Virus record (IMG/VR): IMGVR_UViG_3300025645_000466
Span: 1 to 23,395 of that record
Direction: 5' to 3' (one strand)
DNA: 23,395 nucleotides
From: a virus
A program made the position numbers and the translations under genes. Each line of letters opens with the position of its first letter. The first letter of the stretch is position 1. This document shows positions 3,259-23,395 of this stretch, in pieces. Below the pieces are notes generated by a model that worked only from the letters and a program-made list of their open reading frames with translations, searched no databases and was not told the DNA's origin.

Positions 3259-3654
3259 TTATTTGACCTGCGAACTGCCAAAATAGAAACCAACAATGGC
3301 CAATGCCGTTTGTCGAATTTCTGGCAAGATCACAAAGCCTTGCACTGTATCCCATTTGAGTGATTTAAAGAATCCAAAAAAGCCAGTTGTTTCATGTTGC
3401 ACACTGATGCCAATGCTTGTGAAAGCAAAGATGAATGGCGCAAGAACAATGGCAAAGATTACTGAAAATGTAATCAGCCGCCGCATGTAAACACCACCAC
3501 GCGCTGCTGCCTTGTCGGCTGAATCATCCGCGACAGTTTGCCGGGCAATCATGCGTTCAAATAATCGCGCTTGGCTTTCTGCTTGTGCCGCAATCATCTT
3601 CATCACAAAGCCACTCACACCGCCGCCAAGCATTGCTAAAAGTTCTGGAGTCAT
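3259..3654 (-). CDS. Small membrane protein, holin candidate
   Basis: The frame is open upstream to 3810, but that extension overlaps another small gene. The natural start is ATG 3654, giving 131 residues beginning MTPELLAMLGGGVSGFVMKM. A charged amphipathic helix follows (AESQARLFERMIARQ), then a hydrophobic segment at residues 60-82 (ITFSVIFAIVLAPFIFAFTS) and a second, weaker one around 104-126 (VQGFVILP, TALAIVGFYFG). Size, membrane segments, neighbouring small membrane protein and position after the tail fibre suggest a holin or other lysis protein. No endolysin is adjacent, so this remains a contextual call. Confidence 0.65.
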   Translation of the reverse strand: MTPELLAMLGGGVSGFVMKMIAAQAESQARLFERMIARQTVADDSADKAAARGGVYMRRLITFSVIFAIVLAPFIFAFTSIGISVQHETTGFFGFFKSLKWDTVQGFVILPEIRQTALAIVGFYFGSSQVK

Positions 3655-3677
3655 AATATTTGATTTTTGGGTTGATG

Positions 3678-3842
3678 CTATTTTTTGAAGATGTGCCACC
3701 AAGCAATTGCCAATGATGCAAGACCTGCGCAAAAATAAGCAAATGTGCTGGCAATTTCGTTTGTGCTTGGCATTGATGCCGCCATTTGAGCAACACCCAA
3801 TGTTCCCCATATTTTAAAATGTTCAAACAATTGAGAGTTCAT
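3678..3842 (-). CDS. 54-residue membrane protein, possible lysis component
   Basis: A short ORF starts at ATG 3840-3842, overlapping the tail-fibre stop in a TAATG arrangement, and ends at TAG 3678-3680, 23 bases before the next gene. It reads MNSQLFEHFKIWGTLGVAQM, then a hydrophobic stretch at residues 30-50 (IASTFAYFCAGLASLAIAWW) ending in a basic tail HIFKK. One or two membrane spans are possible. Translational coupling and clean packing between two genes support it. Together with the following 131-residue membrane protein it may form a holin/antiholin-like pair, but no family is recognised. Confidence 0.65.
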   Translation of the reverse strand: MNSQLFEHFKIWGTLGVAQMAASMPSTNEIASTFAYFCAGLASLAIAWWHIFKK

Positions 3843-6010
3843 TATAATATATAATTGACCGTTAAACCAGCGTATGTAGTGTTATAGCCTGTTGAATTTA
3901 CTGGAACGTTAATGGTTGTAGTATTAACATTCAAAAATTGATTTATTCCAACTAAAGTTGGTGCTTCCGTTGCATAGCATCTAATTGAGGACAATGCTGT
4001 GCAATCACGGAATGCAGCAGCTTGGATTTGCGTAACGGTTCTTGGTATTTCAATTTGCGTTAATGCTGTGCAGTTTCTTAAAACAGATTCAGAAACTACT
4101 GTAAAAATGTTTTGAGAATCACCAATTTGCTGTGGGAATGTAAACTCTTCTAATGCAGTGCCCCCCTCAAAAGCAAATCGACCAACTGCGGCAAGGTCGT
4201 AATCTGATAAACGAACTGTCTTTAGTGATGTGCAACCTCGGTAAGATGAATTTCCAATTGCAGTAATGTTTCTGCCCAATGTAAAACCATTGCCACCAGC
4301 GTTAATGCCTTGCCCATATTTAATGCAATTCTCAAAACAGTTATCACCAATTGTTCCGGCGGTTGAGTTATGATAATAAAATTCAACCAAAGAATTGCAT
4401 CCTTGAAAAGTCTGCGATCCTAGTGATTTGCAATTAGACCCTAAAGTAACACTTGTTATTGCAGTATTTAAACGATAACCAGAGTTCAAATCAGCGTCCC
4501 GAAGGTTTTTAATTGAACCTATTCCACCAGCAATTGAAGTTGTGTATGGATAAACTGGATATAACTCATCAACTCTGTTATTTAAAGAAGTTATTGAATT
4601 CCTGTTTAACTCAATTTCATTATAATTTTCTGTTATTTGTTCACTTAGTTCTTGCTTCAACTCATAAACGGAAGCCTCATTGTTTATGAAAACACCAAGT
4701 GTTCCATTGTTTTGTCCCAAGCGCAGAACATGGCCAATTTCAACTTCAATTGCTGGTTTCACTGGCGTTAATGCACCAGCAACTGTGTCACTAAGATAAA
4801 CCAAGCCGCCCTCTGTAAATCCATTCAACTGCCGCAGGTCTAAGCCGCGAACCTTACCCACTAAAGTGATAAAGCCTGTGCCATTGTTTCCTGAAATTGT
4901 TTGAGTGGCAACCCCGATTGTTCTGTGCGCTTCTTCAGCATTTGATGCAAGTGCTAGATCAATGTTTGGAGTGTTACCTTGCGCGCCGACAATTTTGACA
5001 ACTTGACCATCAATAATATCAACACCAGTTTTGTTCCGGCAATACATCAAAGTTTCTTGCCCAACTTGAATGACAACATCACTTGACCCTGTAATAATAT
5101 CAAAAGTTAATTCTTGATTGTTCCATTCCATCTTGGCTGCCACTTCATCAAGATTTGTTGACCATGCTTGCACATCTTCACCGACCACCAAACTCAAATC
5201 TTCACGCCAGATTGCAGGGTTGAAGAAACCATTGGTTGTTGGATCGGCAGCAAAGGCATCAAGATTGTTTGGCAATGAATGTGCTGGCAAACTATTTGGA
5301 GCAGCCACCGCCGGAAAAACTGAAATTGGAACTTGGCAAACAACATCTGTGCCAACTTTGATTTCAAAAAAGGCATCTGCGCCTTCTGCAATCAATTCCT
5401 GCACTCTGGCTGTGTTGGCATCCAGTTGACCCGTCCAAGTGCTTCCAACACTTGCCCATTCCTCAGAATAAATTGCAGGTTGCTGGCTAATTTCAATGAC
5501 TTGTTGCGCCCGGATTGTTGGCGAACCAACAACGCTTGTGCCAACTGTCACTTCAGATTCTGGTGCAAGGTCAAGGCTTTGCCCAGCCATATCAACGCGC
5601 GCACCAACATCATCAAAAATCACTCGATAAGAACCATTTGCCAATTTCTGAACTGAAACCTTTGAGCCATAAGCACCAGAACCACCATTGAGAGCATTTA
5701 AAGCACCCGCCACGGCTTCGGCTGATGCGTTCCATGCCAATGCGCTTGTTGATTCAATGCCAGCGTTCAACTTGAATGTGCCAGATGTGGCAGCTTTGCC
5801 CTTGGCTGATATTGCAACCGCAACATCAACTGCTGTGCCGCTCCGGGCATCGTATTGACCATTGGAATTTACCAAATGCAAAACAACGTCTGCAACTTCA
5901 CCCTCAATGATTTGAGGCAGCCGAACCACCTGTGTTGGCCGATTTAGATTTGCAACCGCATTGGCCGTCAAATCCTTTAGTTGTGTGTTGATATAAATGT
6001 TGTTAGCCAT
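3842..6010 (-). CDS. Tail fibre / receptor-binding protein with BspA-like leucine-rich repeats
   Basis: This 722-residue protein is modular. Residues 1-235 are beta-rich and begin MANNIYINTQLKDL; residues 75-135 resemble a domain seen in other phage and surface proteins (GTFKLN ... ALNALNGG ... GSYRVIFDD). Residues 311-445 form a beta domain (GQVVKIVGAQGNTPNIDLAL, IGVATQTI, VYLSDTVAGALTP). Residues 447-484 are a coiled coil, typical of trimeric fibres. Residues 515-722 are BspA-like leucine-rich repeats, with recurring units such as SLGSQTFQGCNSL, AIGNSSYRGCTSLKTVRL, AVGRFAFEGGTALEEF and QIQAAAFRDCTALSSI, and a terminal NVPVNSTGYNTTYAG cap. BspA-type repeats bind host or bacterial surfaces, so the C-terminus is the likely receptor-binding end. 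It follows the tail genes and precedes the membrane proteins. The leader has no SD. Confidence 0.75.
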   Translation of the reverse strand: MANNIYINTQLKDLTANAVANLNRPTQVVRLPQIIEGEVADVVLHLVNSNGQYDARSGTAVDVAVAISAKGKAATSGTFKLNAGIESTSALAWNASAEAVAGALNALNGGSGAYGSKVSVQKLANGSYRVIFDDVGARVDMAGQSLDLAPESEVTVGTSVVGSPTIRAQQVIEISQQPAIYSEEWASVGSTWTGQLDANTARVQELIAEGADAFFEIKVGTDVVCQVPISVFPAVAAPNSLPAHSLPNNLDAFAADPTTNGFFNPAIWREDLSLVVGEDVQAWSTNLDEVAAKMEWNNQELTFDIITGSSDVVIQVGQETLMYCRNKTGVDIIDGQVVKIVGAQGNTPNIDLALASNAEEAHRTIGVATQTISGNNGTGFITLVGKVRGLDLRQLNGFTEGGLVYLSDTVAGALTPVKPAIEVEIGHVLRLGQNNGTLGVFINNEASVYELKQELSEQITENYNEIELNRNSITSLNNRVDELYPVYPYTTSIAGGIGSIKNLRDADLNSGYRLNTAITSVTLGSNCKSLGSQTFQGCNSLVEFYYHNSTAGTIGDNCFENCIKYGQGINAGGNGFTLGRNITAIGNSSYRGCTSLKTVRLSDYDLAAVGRFAFEGGTALEEFTFPQQIGDSQNIFTVVSESVLRNCTALTQIEIPRTVTQIQAAAFRDCTALSSIRCYATEAPTLVGINQFLNVNTTTINVPVNSTGYNTTYAGLTVNYIL

Positions 6011-6047: not shown

Positions 6048-6521
6048 TCAGATTTTGCCCCAGCCATCTGGTGAATCAATCTCACTTACAATTGAATAAT
6101 CAATTGCGTTGCCCGTCCCGTCCCCGGCTTTATTTGGCACAATCATCCTTCGGTTTTCCGTCCCGTCTGAAAACTTAGATTGCAAGACAACATCCCCGGC
6201 ATCCCAAGCACTCCCACCTTGATTTAATGATATGTCAATTTCAGCGTTTTTGCTTGAAGGATCGACCGCAGCATTTTCTTCTCTGATTTCCCTATTCAAC
6301 TCAAGTGAGACATTTCTGGAACTTTGAATTGAACCATTCATTTCTTCAACTGAATCCCTTAAAATGATATCAAAATTGGCGTTGTTTGCTTCTGCCGTAA
6401 TAAACAAAGAATCCAATTTTGGGTATTTAATCAGCCCTTTAATTTTTTCACGCACAAGCCCGGATGCCAAAAGCATCTTTGCCATTATTACTCGGTTTGA
6501 TTTGCCGCGATTGCTTATCAT
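6048..6521 (-). CDS. Tail-tip region protein (unknown)
   Basis: This 157-residue protein starts at an ATG overlapping the previous stop (ATGA). A second in-frame ATG at 6482 (MAKMLLASG) would give 144 residues. The protein is mixed: a basic N-terminus, a helical middle with RNVSLELNREIREENAAVD, and an acidic, Gly/Asp-rich C-terminus ending DSPDGWGKI. No family is recognised. Its place between tape-measure-linked genes and the fibre suggests a tail tip or fibre-attachment role. The 37-bp gap after it holds an AT-rich leader for the fibre gene. Confidence 0.6.
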   Translation of the reverse strand: MISNRGKSNRVIMAKMLLASGLVREKIKGLIKYPKLDSLFITAEANNANFDIILRDSVEEMNGSIQSSRNVSLELNREIREENAAVDPSSKNAEIDISLNQGGSAWDAGDVVLQSKFSDGTENRRMIVPNKAGDGTGNAIDYSIVSEIDSPDGWGKI

Positions 6522-7503
6522 AAAGCCTCAACTGTTATGTTTACGCTTTCCCAAATGTTCCCCATCCATCTTGAGATTTTGGTTGATTCAGCATTAATAA
6601 ATTCTCCGGCTGTAACAATATCCAAATATTGATCTTTATTTGGTGTTGTTGTGGCAGTCAAAGTATCTGTTGGCGTTCCATCGGAAGCAACAACTGAAAA
6701 CTGAGAACCAATTGGAATGCCAATCAAATCATCTGACTTTAAATAACTAATTGTTTTTCTTGAATTGGCATTTTGAGTAAAAGGATTTCTTGATGGCAAT
6801 GATTGAACCATTGTTACAGTTGATGCCGTTGAATTTGGAAATCTTAACCCGTTGTAATTAGAACCCAAAACTGATTTGATTGTGATTTGGTCACCAGAAA
6901 TATCAGTTACAAACCCATTTTGGTAAACGTCCAAAATCCAAGAACCATTGAAAACAATTCTTTTTTCAAACCTATAAGGAAAAGGCTGCGAATTGTTTCT
7001 TACATCAAATTTTTGTCCAATTGCATAGTCACCCGGATTTGTGACTTCAAAAACTAATACGCCACTATCTGTTGCTGATTCATAGCTAGCCAATGGAGTT
7101 GGGCTAGATTTTGAAGTCCCAAAAACTTGCTCGGTTGTGGCTGAAATTCCGGGATAAGTGAAAGCATAAATGCCGTTTCCTTCAAGCCTTGGAGCCGGCA
7201 CATTGGCAAATGTTCTTTGAAAAGAAACAATGCTTGTGCCGTTGTCTGTTGGCTCAGAATCACCAACCCAAAAAGCATTGGCATCATCTGCAAATGGCGA
7301 CCGCACTGGCTTTTGTTGATTCGCCCCGCCGCCAGTTTCCATGAAATTGTTGAAAGCAAGTGGAGCATAATTTGCCCGCGCCACCTGCATGTCATGCACA
7401 TAAACTTTGGTTGCAGAATCACCTTCATTGGCAAATGGGTATTTAATCACGCCGCCAACACAAGTTGGAGTTGCAAAAGATGTTCCGGCTGAGTAAGGGA
7501 TTG

Positions 7504-7507
<4 letters not shown>
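6518..7507 (-). CDS. Minor tail / tail-tip structural protein (unknown family)
   Basis: This 329-residue protein follows the tape measure with an ATGA overlap. It is rich in Ser, Thr, Asn, Gly and aromatic residues with beta-type periodicity, as usual for tail structural proteins. It begins MTIPYSAGTSFATPTCVGG; the opening is similar to that of the tail tube protein (MSIPYSSVANL), although the rest does not align by eye. Other landmarks are FWVGDSEPTDNG, GIYAFTYPGI and ISRWMGNIWESVNITVE at the C-terminus. No catalytic motif is visible. By position it is equivalent to the distal tail or minor tail proteins of siphoviruses. Confidence 0.6.
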
Positions 7508-9848
<2,341 letters not shown>

Positions 9849-9852
<4 letters not shown>

Positions 9853-12438: not shown

Positions 12439-12751
12439 TCAATTTCGTTTCGTTTCTTGCTTCAATTTCAACATTGCCTGTGCTTGTGCTGATTTGAGTA
12501 ATAAAGAAAGTTTCACCAGTTTCAATTCTAGTAAATCGGTCTTTTTTATTTGGCAATTTTCCAATGTCCAAAAATGCAATGACCAACTTTAGCTCCGGGT
12601 TGTCTTGGTCACCAAATTCATTCATTTCCCAATCGCTGATTTCTTCATCAAAAACTGCATTGACAACTTGCCCATTGATTTCAATTGGTTCTCCCATAAT
12701 GGCAGCAGCTTCACTGCAACCAATGTTTAAGAAATTATTAAAATCATGCAT
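12425..12751 (-). CDS. Head-tail joining (stopper/FII-like) protein candidate
   Basis: This 108-residue protein fits the small beta-barrel head-tail connectors. It has GEPIEINGQVVNAVFDEE, a central hydrophobic strand LKLVIAFLDIGKLP, then DRFTRIETGETFFITQISTS and VEIEARNETKL, the usual strand order of lambda FII-like proteins. It overlaps the upstream gene by 8 bases and the downstream one by 14, so translation is likely coupled. Confidence in a connector role is moderate; the exact family is not proven. Confidence 0.55.
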   Translation of the reverse strand: MHDFNNFLNIGCSEAAAIMGEPIEINGQVVNAVFDEEISDWEMNEFGDQDNPELKLVIAFLDIGKLPNKKDRFTRIETGETFFITQISTSTGNVEIEARNETKLNAKK

Positions 12752-13556
12752 TGTTTACAAAAGTAACATTTGAAGATTGATCAGCAAAAGCAAAATTCAA
12801 ATCTCCATCCGTTGAACCCCTTAAAATTCCACGCACTCCAAGGTTGCCAATATCCAAAGTGAAAGAATCGTTTGATGTTAATGATGGTGTATTGTTGAAT
12901 TTGTCTTTAATTGAAACCCAAGTTCCTTGATCCGCGCCCCATCCAGAAACATTGCCCGTGCCATCATAATTCCCAAGAGAATCTTTTTCAATTACTCCAT
13001 CAAGTGTTCCAGCAGTTCTTGATTGCATTTTCCACCATCCGCAAAGCTTGTCATTTTCAAGATCCTGTTCTGCTCCAAGTTGTTTATACAATTTTAAATT
13101 CCTATAATTGCCCCCAGCAGAAGTTGTTCCTTCTCCAATAAATCCGCAGCCAACCAAATTTGGAAGGCCAAACTTTGTCGTAGAAGTTCCCAATGCCAAT
13201 TCTGTTACCGGAAATTGCATAACAATTCCTTCCGCTATAAAGTCACCTACTCCCTGAGTATATCCCAAATTAATAAAAAATGGTCGATTTGGTATGACTT
13301 CACATTGAACATAATAATTCGCCTCACCTTCCGCGCTGCAATCTGCTCGTATTAGTTGAGAAATTACGCCCGGAGGATTTGGATAAAGTGGATCTTCTTC
13401 AGCACTTGAATAAATTGTGGAAGAATTGGAATCAGCACTTGCTTCAATGGTTGCAGTTCCGCCGCCAAAATCCCCGTATGTAAGAACTGTCACAAGCCCT
13501 CCAATTTGAACTGTTTCTGTTGAACCGTATTCTGAAATATTTTTAATTGTAGCCAT
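12744..13556 (-). CDS. Structural protein of the head-neck region (unknown)
   Basis: This 270-residue protein is beta-rich and poor in Lys, with many Gly, Asn, Ser and Thr. It begins MATIKNISEYGSTETVQIGG and contains QLIRADCSAEGEANYYVQC, LVGCGFIGEGTTSAGG, CGWWKMQSRTAGTLDG and a C-terminal beta segment (RGSTDGDLNFAFADQSSN). The middle, with a cluster of Gly and aromatic residues, resembles a carbohydrate-binding or lectin-like jelly-roll only in a general way. Lying after the capsid gene and before the connectors, it could be a capsid decoration or neck fibre protein. No family recognised. Its leader is AT-rich without an SD, following a terminator by about 40 bases. Confidence 0.55.
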   Translation of the reverse strand: MATIKNISEYGSTETVQIGGLVTVLTYGDFGGGTATIEASADSNSSTIYSSAEEDPLYPNPPGVISQLIRADCSAEGEANYYVQCEVIPNRPFFINLGYTQGVGDFIAEGIVMQFPVTELALGTSTTKFGLPNLVGCGFIGEGTTSAGGNYRNLKLYKQLGAEQDLENDKLCGWWKMQSRTAGTLDGVIEKDSLGNYDGTGNVSGWGADQGTWVSIKDKFNNTPSLTSNDSFTLDIGNLGVRGILRGSTDGDLNFAFADQSSNVTFVNNA

Positions 13557-18311: not shown

Positions 18312-19199
18312 TTACACCCCGCACATTCCTTCGCACTCGGCTTTAAAATCCCAAACCTGCTGACCCTTATCTTCATCATTATCAAAATCAATCTCATCAA
18401 GCGGTTTGCATGAATTATGCAAATAAACCTCCATTTTCATTGCTCGATCTGTTTTGCCTAATTCTCTGATTTTTTTATCAAACTCAATTGCCTTATTGAA
18501 ATATTTTGGATCATTGTCACGCATTCGCCTCCATTCGTGATCACTGTGAAATGGGCAATAATAACAAGCAGAACGCGGTGGGTTTGGAAAACCCCTGTCT
18601 TTCATCCATTCAATAATCTTGGAGCGAGTCATTTTTAATTCCAATAATGGGTATCTTAATTGAGTCCAATGCTGCCTTGCTTCTTTTGCTCGCTGTATTT
18701 CGTCCCAAGAGATTCCAATCCATTGAGTGACAGTAATGTGTTTTTGCCCTCTCTTAATCTCACACAATTCCTTTATCTTTTTTTCAATTGGTTTAATTTT
18801 GTAATCTGCTGTGCAACTTCTGCCAATTGCTGCTGTCTTTTTACCATCTGGCAAGATGCCAAACATCGGAATGATTCGACGCATATATTTTTCGCCAATT
18901 TCATAATTGATTGCCTTTTTAGTAGCGACCGCAGGCTTCAATTGATTTTCAGTAAGATTGCCATGTCTAACAGTATGAATTGGAAATGGATGTGGTGCTT
19001 TATTTATTAAACCGCGCAAAGTTTCCAGCCACTCATATACTTCATCTGGTTCTGCGCCAACGTCTGCAAAGATTGCAAAATCTGGCAATGGAGTTATATC
19101 GCCGTATGCAGCCATCAACGCAAGCGCAGAGGATTGAACCCCTGCACCCAAGTTGAGAACATTAAATTCTGTTTCTTCTGGTTTCTTAAATGGGTTCAT
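18312..19199 (-). CDS. PAPS reductase / ATP-pyrophosphatase family protein
   Basis: This 295-residue protein has the N-type ATP-pyrophosphatase fold signature. The P-loop is NLGAGVQSSALALMA (residues 16-30), where the usual SGGKDS is GAGVQSS. The second motif is FADVGAEPDEVYEWL (45-59). Cysteines at C129 (SCTADYKIKPI), C212 and C215 (ACYYCPFHSD) and C289/C293 at the end (CEGMCGV) could bind iron-sulphur or zinc. Family members adenylate a substrate, and relatives include PAPS reductases, DndC and tRNA thiolases. A phage copy next to ParB, Mom-like and terminase genes suggests nucleic-acid modification rather than sulphate assimilation. It is followed by a strong terminator. Confidence 0.8.
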   Translation of the reverse strand: MNPFKKPEETEFNVLNLGAGVQSSALALMAAYGDITPLPDFAIFADVGAEPDEVYEWLETLRGLINKAPHPFPIHTVRHGNLTENQLKPAVATKKAINYEIGEKYMRRIIPMFGILPDGKKTAAIGRSCTADYKIKPIEKKIKELCEIKRGQKHITVTQWIGISWDEIQRAKEARQHWTQLRYPLLELKMTRSKIIEWMKDRGFPNPPRSACYYCPFHSDHEWRRMRDNDPKYFNKAIEFDKKIRELGKTDRAMKMEVYLHNSCKPLDEIDFDNDEDKGQQVWDFKAECEGMCGV

Positions 19200-22179: not shown

Positions 22180-22830
22180 TTAATGGAGCGTATTGGTCAG
22201 AGTTGCACTGCCCTTTTCAGACTGGATGTCTGATGTGTCACTGGTTTCACTTAATACGCGCTTTGGATAAGGTTTTGAAAGTTTTGATACACTATTAAAC
22301 ATTGAGTTGTCAAGCGGCATCAAATACCTGTGTTTGCCTTTTGCAACCCTAGTTTTTGTATTTTTATTCATTTTGTAAAATGCTCCGCGCATGTGAACCC
22401 ATCTGCCATCAATAAAAACTTCAGTTGTCTCAGTTGAAGTCCCAGAATAAATCCAATTGGTTGCTTGATAAATTCCACCATGATGCCCTTGGTTTTGATC
22501 AGCAAAAGAAACAATTAATTTCAAGCCTTTGCAATTTCTCTTTAAGAATTTAAAAGCAATTGCCATAATTCTGCTCACTGGCGTTTGATGTTTAGTTAAA
22601 GCAATGCGAACTAGCTCACAAACTTCACTTTGATTCAATCCAAATTTATTGCCAAGAAATGGTGATGCGCCTCGGCCAAAAATAACCGCGCCAATATATT
22701 GGCCATGTTCCCAAACCCCAACTTTAACTAATTTCCCAACTGGAAGGCATTTGCTATAATGCCAATTAACACACGCATGCTTTGCCGCTTCATGTGTCGC
22801 CCAATCTATTTTCAAATCAGATTTTTTCAT
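22180..22830 (-). CDS. Mom-like DNA-modification protein (GNAT-like fold)
   Basis: This 216-residue protein matches phage Mom-like proteins. Marked residues are H24-Y25 in NWHYSKCLPVGKLV, the strand VGVWEHGQYIGAVIFGRGAS, CELVRIAL with E72 and R75, SRIMAIAFKFLK, and the highly characteristic SFADQNQGHHGGIYQATNW (residues 108-126) followed by YSG. In phage Mu, Mom converts adenine in DNA to N6-(1-acetamido)-adenine and protects against restriction. The C-terminal tail (TSDTSDIQSEKGSATLTNTL) is also typical of Mom-like phage proteins. It overlaps the ParB-like stop (ATGA) and precedes the terminase. Whether this protein makes the Mu product or another acyl-type modification cannot be read from sequence. 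Confidence 0.82.
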   Translation of the reverse strand: MKKSDLKIDWATHEAAKHACVNWHYSKCLPVGKLVKVGVWEHGQYIGAVIFGRGASPFLGNKFGLNQSEVCELVRIALTKHQTPVSRIMAIAFKFLKRNCKGLKLIVSFADQNQGHHGGIYQATNWIYSGTSTETTEVFIDGRWVHMRGAFYKMNKNTKTRVAKGKHRYLMPLDNSMFNSVSKLSKPYPKRVLSETSDTSDIQSEKGSATLTNTLH

Positions 22831-23345
22831 GGATTATGCTCATTATTTCTTGAGTCAAAAACATGATCGCAGCTTGGGCACTTTACAAATTTAGGTTCAA
22901 GCTCATCGAGTTGTCCCTGTTCATCTTCATTTCCCGGATTAAAATCTGGTGTGTTTATATTAATTTCATCTTCAGAAAATCCAGTTAAATCCAAATCGAA
23001 ATTATCTTCAAGCAGTCTTTCGATCTCGGCCGCTAAAGCTTCTTCATCCCAGCCTGCATTTAAAGCAAGTTTGTTGTCCGCAATTACGTATGCCCTCCGC
23101 TGAGGATCGCTCAAATGGCCAAGCCTTATGCATGGCAAAACTTCCATCCCTAATTTCTGAGCGGCCAATAATCGGCCATGACCGGCAATAACTCCATTGG
23201 CTGAGTCAATTAGAATTGGGTTTGTAAATCCAAATTCTTTAATGCTAGAAGCAATTTGCGCAACCTGTTTTTCGTTGTGCGTCCTAGTGTTTCCGGAATA
23301 AGGAATTAACTTTTCAATTTTCAGTTCTTCAATTTTTTGGGACAT
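22827..23345 (-). CDS. ParB-like nuclease-domain protein, short form with zinc half-knuckle
   Basis: From ATG 23345 the protein has 172 residues; the open frame extends upstream to a TTG with no support. Residues 5-100 are a ParB N-terminal domain: KLIPYSGNTRTHNEKQVAQI, IKEFGFTNPILID, the GxxxAGHGRLLAA box (NGVIAGHGRLLAAQKLG) and a helix region SDPQRRAYVIADNKLALNAG. It then stops after DLTGFSEDEI, where longer relatives continue into a DNA methyltransferase. The C-terminus instead has KCPSCDHVFDS, half of a zinc-binding motif. It may bind DNA and guide modification with the neighbouring Mom-like protein. The leader lacks an SD. Function is inferred from context. Confidence 0.85.
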   Translation of the reverse strand: MSQKIEELKIEKLIPYSGNTRTHNEKQVAQIASSIKEFGFTNPILIDSANGVIAGHGRLLAAQKLGMEVLPCIRLGHLSDPQRRAYVIADNKLALNAGWDEEALAAEIERLLEDNFDLDLTGFSEDEININTPDFNPGNEDEQGQLDELEPKFVKCPSCDHVFDSRNNEHNP

Positions 23346-23395
23346 AATATTAAATTTTAAATTTGCGTAGAAAAGCAAGAGAAGTCCTCTTACCA

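Follow-up and report, generated by a model that had tools for sequence, protein, structure and literature searches.

The window analysed here, the whole 23,395 bases of a single virus record, contains a gene whose 722-residue product had been read from sequence alone as a phage tail fibre ending in a leucine-rich repeat (LRR) adhesin of the BspA type. The question raised by this locus is whether the distal end is indeed such a module, by what route it reached a phage and what it may do there.

Setting of the gene and architecture of its product

The protein is encoded by one open frame on the minus strand, where the plus strand is full of stops (Table 1). Its neighbours on the same strand are the genes for terminase large subunit, lambda-type portal, ClpP-type head protease and major head protein; the position of the tape measure is taken by a long coiled protein (7504–9852), which presumably has that role. 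Such a place within a phage structural cluster is unlike that of a bacterial BspA surface adhesin, and by eye no hydrophobic stretch as in a bacterial-type secretion signal was seen in the N-terminus MANNIYINTQLKDL....

Few Verrucomicrobia phages have been cultured, and the window is related across most of its length to one of them, P8625 (identity of 74% for portal, 62% for terminase large subunit and 60% for major head protein), which the title of its report presents as the first lytic phage of Verrucomicrobia and which is described there as a siphovirus with a tail of 71–75 nm, lytic on a strain of marine Verrucomicrobia (PMC4642752). Because of this relatedness, and because a contig of an uncultured Opitutae MAG carries a portal relative with 74% identity, the host of the window phage is probably a marine Verrucomicrobia bacterium. 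The window fibre has the platform N-terminus (37% identity over residues 1–274), the gene order and siphophage relatives in common with P8625 gp22 (KP792622), but gp22 bears YadA-head-type repeats (a weak, sub-threshold Pfam match) and a further C-terminal domain, and no LRR. Synteny with this annotated fibre, together with an N-terminus that resembles baseplate proteins, agrees with the earlier view that the repeats are joined to a phage tail domain.

Table 1. Features of the fibre locus, in positions of the window
Feature	Residues	Position	Strand	Evidence
Tail fibre / baseplate-anchored receptor-binding protein candidate	722 aa	3842..6010	-	Single ORF; syntenic with P8625 gp22 'tail fiber protein'
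N-terminal virion-anchor platform, predicted BppU-like fold at about 1–70 and 165–235	1–290	5141..6010	-	AF2 model and VIA-align; homologues with other C-terminal ends
Beta domain inserted in platform	about 71–164	5519..5800	-	phrog_10909, Bxb1 gp23 and 9d93 matches
Shaft domain	291–445	4676..5140	-	tblastn matches to fibre/tail genes; common to L005–L008
Helical stalk, predicted coiled coil, starting at the exchange join NNEASVYELKQEL	446–484	4559..4675	-	Helix in low-confidence model; join motif
BspA-type LRR end (N-cap, six repeats, C-cap)	485–722	3845..4558	-	LRR_5 and 4fs7 matches; repeat layout
Exchanged cassette, 95.4% identical to an unrelated phage lineage	449 to just past stop	3831..4665	-	blastn against L007/L013
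Small gene directly downstream of fibre, phrog_38283		3259..3810	-	phrog_38283, E = 5.2e-56; kept in both lineages; 72.8% nucleotide identity in L013

A Pfam search with the 722-residue protein gave LRR_5 / BspA-type LRR (PF13306) at 85.5 bits against a gathering cut-off of 27.7 (E = 3.6e-24) and no second family at E <= 0.1, and the nearest solved chains by sequence were likewise BspA-type LRR proteins (4fs7, E = 4.2e-18; 4gt6, E = 1.2e-16; T. pallidum TpLRR, 6mlx, E = 1.3e-7), so the match lies far beyond chance and the BspA-like end is borne out. Counted by eye, an N-cap (PYTTSI...) is followed by six repeats, mostly of 23–24 residues with two of 30–31, and by a C-cap (...TTINVPVNSTGYNTTYAGLTVNYIL). 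The repeats are therefore C-terminal as had been claimed, with an extent of about 235 residues, from about 485–488, in place of the 200 proposed. The repeat family and the solenoid homology are common to the window LRR and to these solved proteins, which are described as bacterial and several of them as cell-surface, whereas the window LRR sits on a phage platform.

The predicted model of residues 291–722 was poor (mean pLDDT 41), showing a helix at 445–483 and then strands at regular spacing; the helix is consistent with the coiled coil that had been placed ahead of the repeats. VIA-align with the C-terminal half of this low-confidence model returned LRR proteins nearly throughout (best Z 13.0 for 4cp6, 185 residues, 3.5 Å), and Foldseek with the LRR model gave no match at E <= 0.001. 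Our assignment of the LRR fold thus draws mainly on homology of sequence.

The platform (residues 1–290) was modelled with AF2 from an 11-sequence alignment, with a mean pLDDT of 67 and values of 81–91 for residues 1–60. The top five structures by VIA-align were all phage baseplate or connector proteins (Bas63 connector, Z 9.1, 3.0 Å over 106 residues; 4v96, Z 8.3; 80alpha baseplate, Z 8.3; N-domain of TP901-1 ORF48, 3uh8, Z 7.6, 2.8 Å over 103 residues; NF5 baseplate, Z 7.5); such proteins at Z 7.6–9.1 aligned over 103–116 residues with an rmsd of 2.8–6.4 Å, and unrelated beta proteins followed from Z 5.6 down. Because a Z of 7–8 by VIA-align is common also for models with no clear match, and because Foldseek with the platform model gave no match at E <= 0.001, we call the predicted fold BppU-like and not BppU, the protein encoded in TP901-1 by ORF48. 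Unlike BppU, the window protein carries a beta domain within its platform and ends in an LRR of its own, and no sequence match to BppU was found in Pfam or among solved chains. The inserted domain matched phrog_10909, a major tail protein (residues 63–139, E = 1.9e-4), and the Bxb1 tail tip cage protein gp23, both by sequence (residues 69–112, E = 9.3e-6) and by VIA-align (9d93, Z 7.4, 31% identity over 88 aligned residues). The shaft matched fibre/tail genes of Pseudomonas phage Rollin, Nitrincola phage 1M3-16 and Roseobacter phage CRP-6 by tblastn.

Exchange of the distal end and variation in repeat number

The fibre of a close relative, L003, is 91% identical to that of the window up to residue 462. 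At the nucleotide level its positions 1–1361, comprising platform and shaft to about codon 454, are 90.7% identical; from about codon 455 the end is unrelated to the LRR, being about 370 residues long with a sub-threshold GLUG match, and homology resumes at codon 722, the last before the stop, to continue at 92.5% through the next gene. The stalk and LRR of the window were found on short unrelated N-termini in L005/L014, L006/L015, L007/L013 and L008, with amino acid identities of 92–94% (L013–L015) and 90% (L008) over 278 residues, and of 93–95% over the 239-residue LRR; in L013 the nucleotide identity is 95.4% from residue 449. On the whole 35,430-base contig behind L007 (L013 and L154), only the fibre and the next gene matched window proteins by tblastn, and the major capsid protein of this second lineage is SU10-type (PF17236, E = 2.1e-31), unlike that of the window; a podovirus shape is our guess. 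Since the same tip sits on the fibre of an unrelated phage, these results suggest that phages trade the LRR tip as a ready-made host-recognition part. The second lineage also encodes a very long protein (L013:15818–17143 and L154:4–4539) with a polyvalent-protein ADP-ribosyltransferase-type domain (PF18760, E = 1.5e-13).

At the join, 17 of the 76 upstream ORFs, counted with duplicates, have a linker of the form [SA]V[YH]EL[KE]Q[EQ][LV], which precedes LRR and GLUG-like ends alike. Exchange of the cassette could proceed by homologous recombination, at this conserved linker on one side and at the downstream small gene on the other, which is conserved in both lineages and is a possible homologous anchor. 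The join is also flanked by a perfect 17-nt inverted repeat (4526–4542 and 4741–4757), and when the window was shuffled by dinucleotides, 0/100 shuffles had two matches of this 17-mer. We nevertheless rejected a switch by inversion or hairpin, since the arms occur singly, without a partner, in L003 (with one mismatch), L008 and L013–L015, and since a perfect repeat of at least 16 nt arose in 6/300 codon shuffles of the gene; for the same reasons the inverted repeat is probably a coincidence.

In order to locate fibre genes of such phages, the downstream phrog_38283 gene is a handy marker, with 195 relatives in viral contigs and matches in 6/286 genomes of the class of the Opitutae MAG. The best 80 of the 195 loci were surveyed; in 11 of them, no upstream ORF of at least 100 aa had its end within roughly 1 kb of the marker. 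Before clustering, 14 of the 76 upstream ORFs were left out: seven on the same contigs as kept loci (L066, L068, L070, L082, L139, L141, L142), six short ORFs (L076, L099, L121, L135, L136, L138) and L071, on a separate contig assumed to be a near copy of L070. Among the 70 proteins scanned, which take in P0001 and several contigs from the same phages, LRR_5 was detected in 13 and DUF285, presumably another BspA-like repeat family, in two. Single-protein scans with the LRR matched other viral LRR proteins. LRR-like repeats as in the window are also present in the phage families phrog_18805 and phrog_35892 and in phage-labelled gut records (MT83xxxx, which carry no annotation), but these match the window only in the repeats.

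A conserved anchor with differing distal ends was found in L003, L009, L010, L021/L022, L024, L073, L098, L127, L137 and L144. The end of L009 consists of YadA-type repeats (E = 7.7e-16) and that of L021/L022 is repeat-rich and, by eye, beta-helix-like; L024, L137 and L144 join the platform to other ends, and L025/L026 have the platform with no distal end. Between its YadA-type fibre and the marker gene, L009 has a sulfotransferase gene (7917–8744; PF13469, E = 2.9e-15), whose product might modify the fibre itself or a sugar at the surface. The platform relatives L024 (5001–6734), L025 (223–1380) and L026 (5001–6158) have an additional domain, about 125 residues long, inserted near residue 117, and the L024 locus also matches the window gene 12744–13556 (30% over 153 aa).

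The number of repeats between related caps varies as well, being one in L073, six in the window and nine in L098 and L127. The latter two are 95% identical to each other, with platforms 22–24% identical to those of the window and L003, and with LRRs about 33% identical to the window LRR; between L073 and L098, platform identity is about 49%. Among the 1-, 6- and 9-repeat versions conservation is highest in the C-terminal cap, as would be expected if the LRR were a structural cap or an element for assembly or trimerisation that binds nothing. This role is very unlikely in our judgement, because an unrelated module replaces the whole end in the close relative L003 and because the number of repeats varies so widely.

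Selection on the LRR and its origin

The sequence-only reading had called for a comparison of this end among close phages for rapid divergence, which is not borne out: where the LRR end is present, conservation is highest there, at the identities given above even where the N-termini are unrelated, and its dN/dS was 0.33–0.64 in six pairs among the window, L013, L015 and L008, so that rapid point divergence is not seen. The stalk gave values of 0.18–1.89 from 36 codons only, which are not informative. The variation lies in whether the module as a whole is there and in how many repeats it has: the fibre changes via whole-module exchange and repeat number. Conservation of the end as high as that of the N-terminus, across phages with different hosts, had been named as speaking against a receptor-binding end; of the two elements of this argument, high conservation and differing hosts, the first is seen here.

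The end had further been regarded as an adhesin captured by a phage. Homologues are indeed common in the presumed host class: of the 286 genomes that were sampled from the class to which the Opitutae MAG belongs, 46 gave LRR matches at E <= 1e-6. The GC3 of stalk and LRR (0.23–0.24) is below that of the rest of the gene (0.34–0.36), which is compatible with a foreign source. Both observations would fit a recent capture of a host BspA-type adhesin by the window phage itself. However, identity to the bacterial matches is at most 41%, and these all start at residue 15 or later of the LRR query (239 residues), leaving most of the N-cap with no counterpart among them. Scanning GTDB species genomes specifically for the LRR yielded no confirmed relative. 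The closest relatives of the LRR are phage fibres throughout, and the exchange that can be seen runs from phage to phage. A recent bacterial donor was therefore rejected, and recent capture is to us extremely improbable; since the bacterial matches are at most 41% identical, a capture from bacteria, if any, appears to have been old or from an unsampled source, and the view of a captured adhesin has partial support only.

Putative role of the LRR end and relation to known systems

We consider it likely that the protein is a baseplate-anchored fibre of a P8625-like Verrucomicrobia siphophage, whose stalk and LRR form an exchangeable cassette for the host-recognition tip. The BppU-like N-terminal platform would dock on the virion or its baseplate, the shaft and the helical stalk, which is probably trimeric, would hold the tip away from the virion, and contact with the cell surface would be made there by the BspA-type LRR solenoid. 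Residues of about 449–722 would then be a self-contained cassette that moves between unrelated phages, and long-term diversification would combine its replacement with changes in repeat number between the caps. This reading is favoured by the clean swap in L003, by the occurrence of the same LRR on unrelated N-termini and by the platform relatives with YadA-type, GLUG-like and beta-helix-like ends. The low dN/dS, which a fast arms race at the tip would not lead one to expect, speaks against it. The LRR could bind a glycan or a protein, or could be merely structural, and the main receptor-binding site could lie in other tail genes of the window (6048–6521, 6518–7507).

Cellular BspA-type LRRs act as adhesive domains at the surface, and the window LRR might accordingly be an auxiliary adhesive of low specificity, for exopolysaccharide, mucilage or particles, that raises encounter while another tail protein picks the host. 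Such a function would suit an end that is conserved, not diversifying, and moves among unrelated phages, next to tail genes with no assigned role, but the LRR fills the terminal site that is taken by YadA-type or GLUG-like modules elsewhere, as expected of exchangeable recognition parts, and we regard the auxiliary function as unlikely.

Under the preferred reading of a recognition tip, a module common to two unrelated lineages with so little divergence predicts that both use one and the same surface molecule. Its repeat scaffold lies outside the usual folds of fibre tips, and specificity could shift through gained or lost repeats. We would suggest, only tentatively, that Verrucomicrobia phages use the LRR solenoid, with kept caps and variable repeats, as an evolvable recognition tip by the logic of animal and plant LRR receptors, and that the cassette is passed between unrelated lineages, one siphophage-like and one with an SU10-type capsid, sharing a host pool.

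Modular exchange of fibres is already known, and the window fibre would add to it a BspA-type LRR end passed on as a cassette. C-terminal specificity modules are described as exchanged across podovirus/siphovirus borders in the Klebsiella phages KP34 and KP36, where the module is an enzymatic depolymerase at 42% identity, whereas the window has an LRR with no recognised enzyme domain at 93–95% (PMC8262889). Judged by its 95.4% nucleotide identity, the exchange between the window and L013 looks far younger. Searches of one library of open PMC papers gave no report of a BspA-type LRR as a phage fibre tip; LRRs come up in PMC12750041, PMC11476376, PMC13370021 and PMC7432712, in mentions that are unrelated or part of a keyword list.

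Further genes of the window were recognised outside the fibre locus. A Mom-type DNA modification protein (PF25680, E = 1.7e-45; phrog_1384) is encoded on the minus strand at 22180–22830, adjoining a ParB-like gene (22827–23378), and a phosphoadenosine phosphosulfate reductase-like gene (18312–19199, minus strand; phrog_424, E = 3e-49) is flanked by packaging genes.
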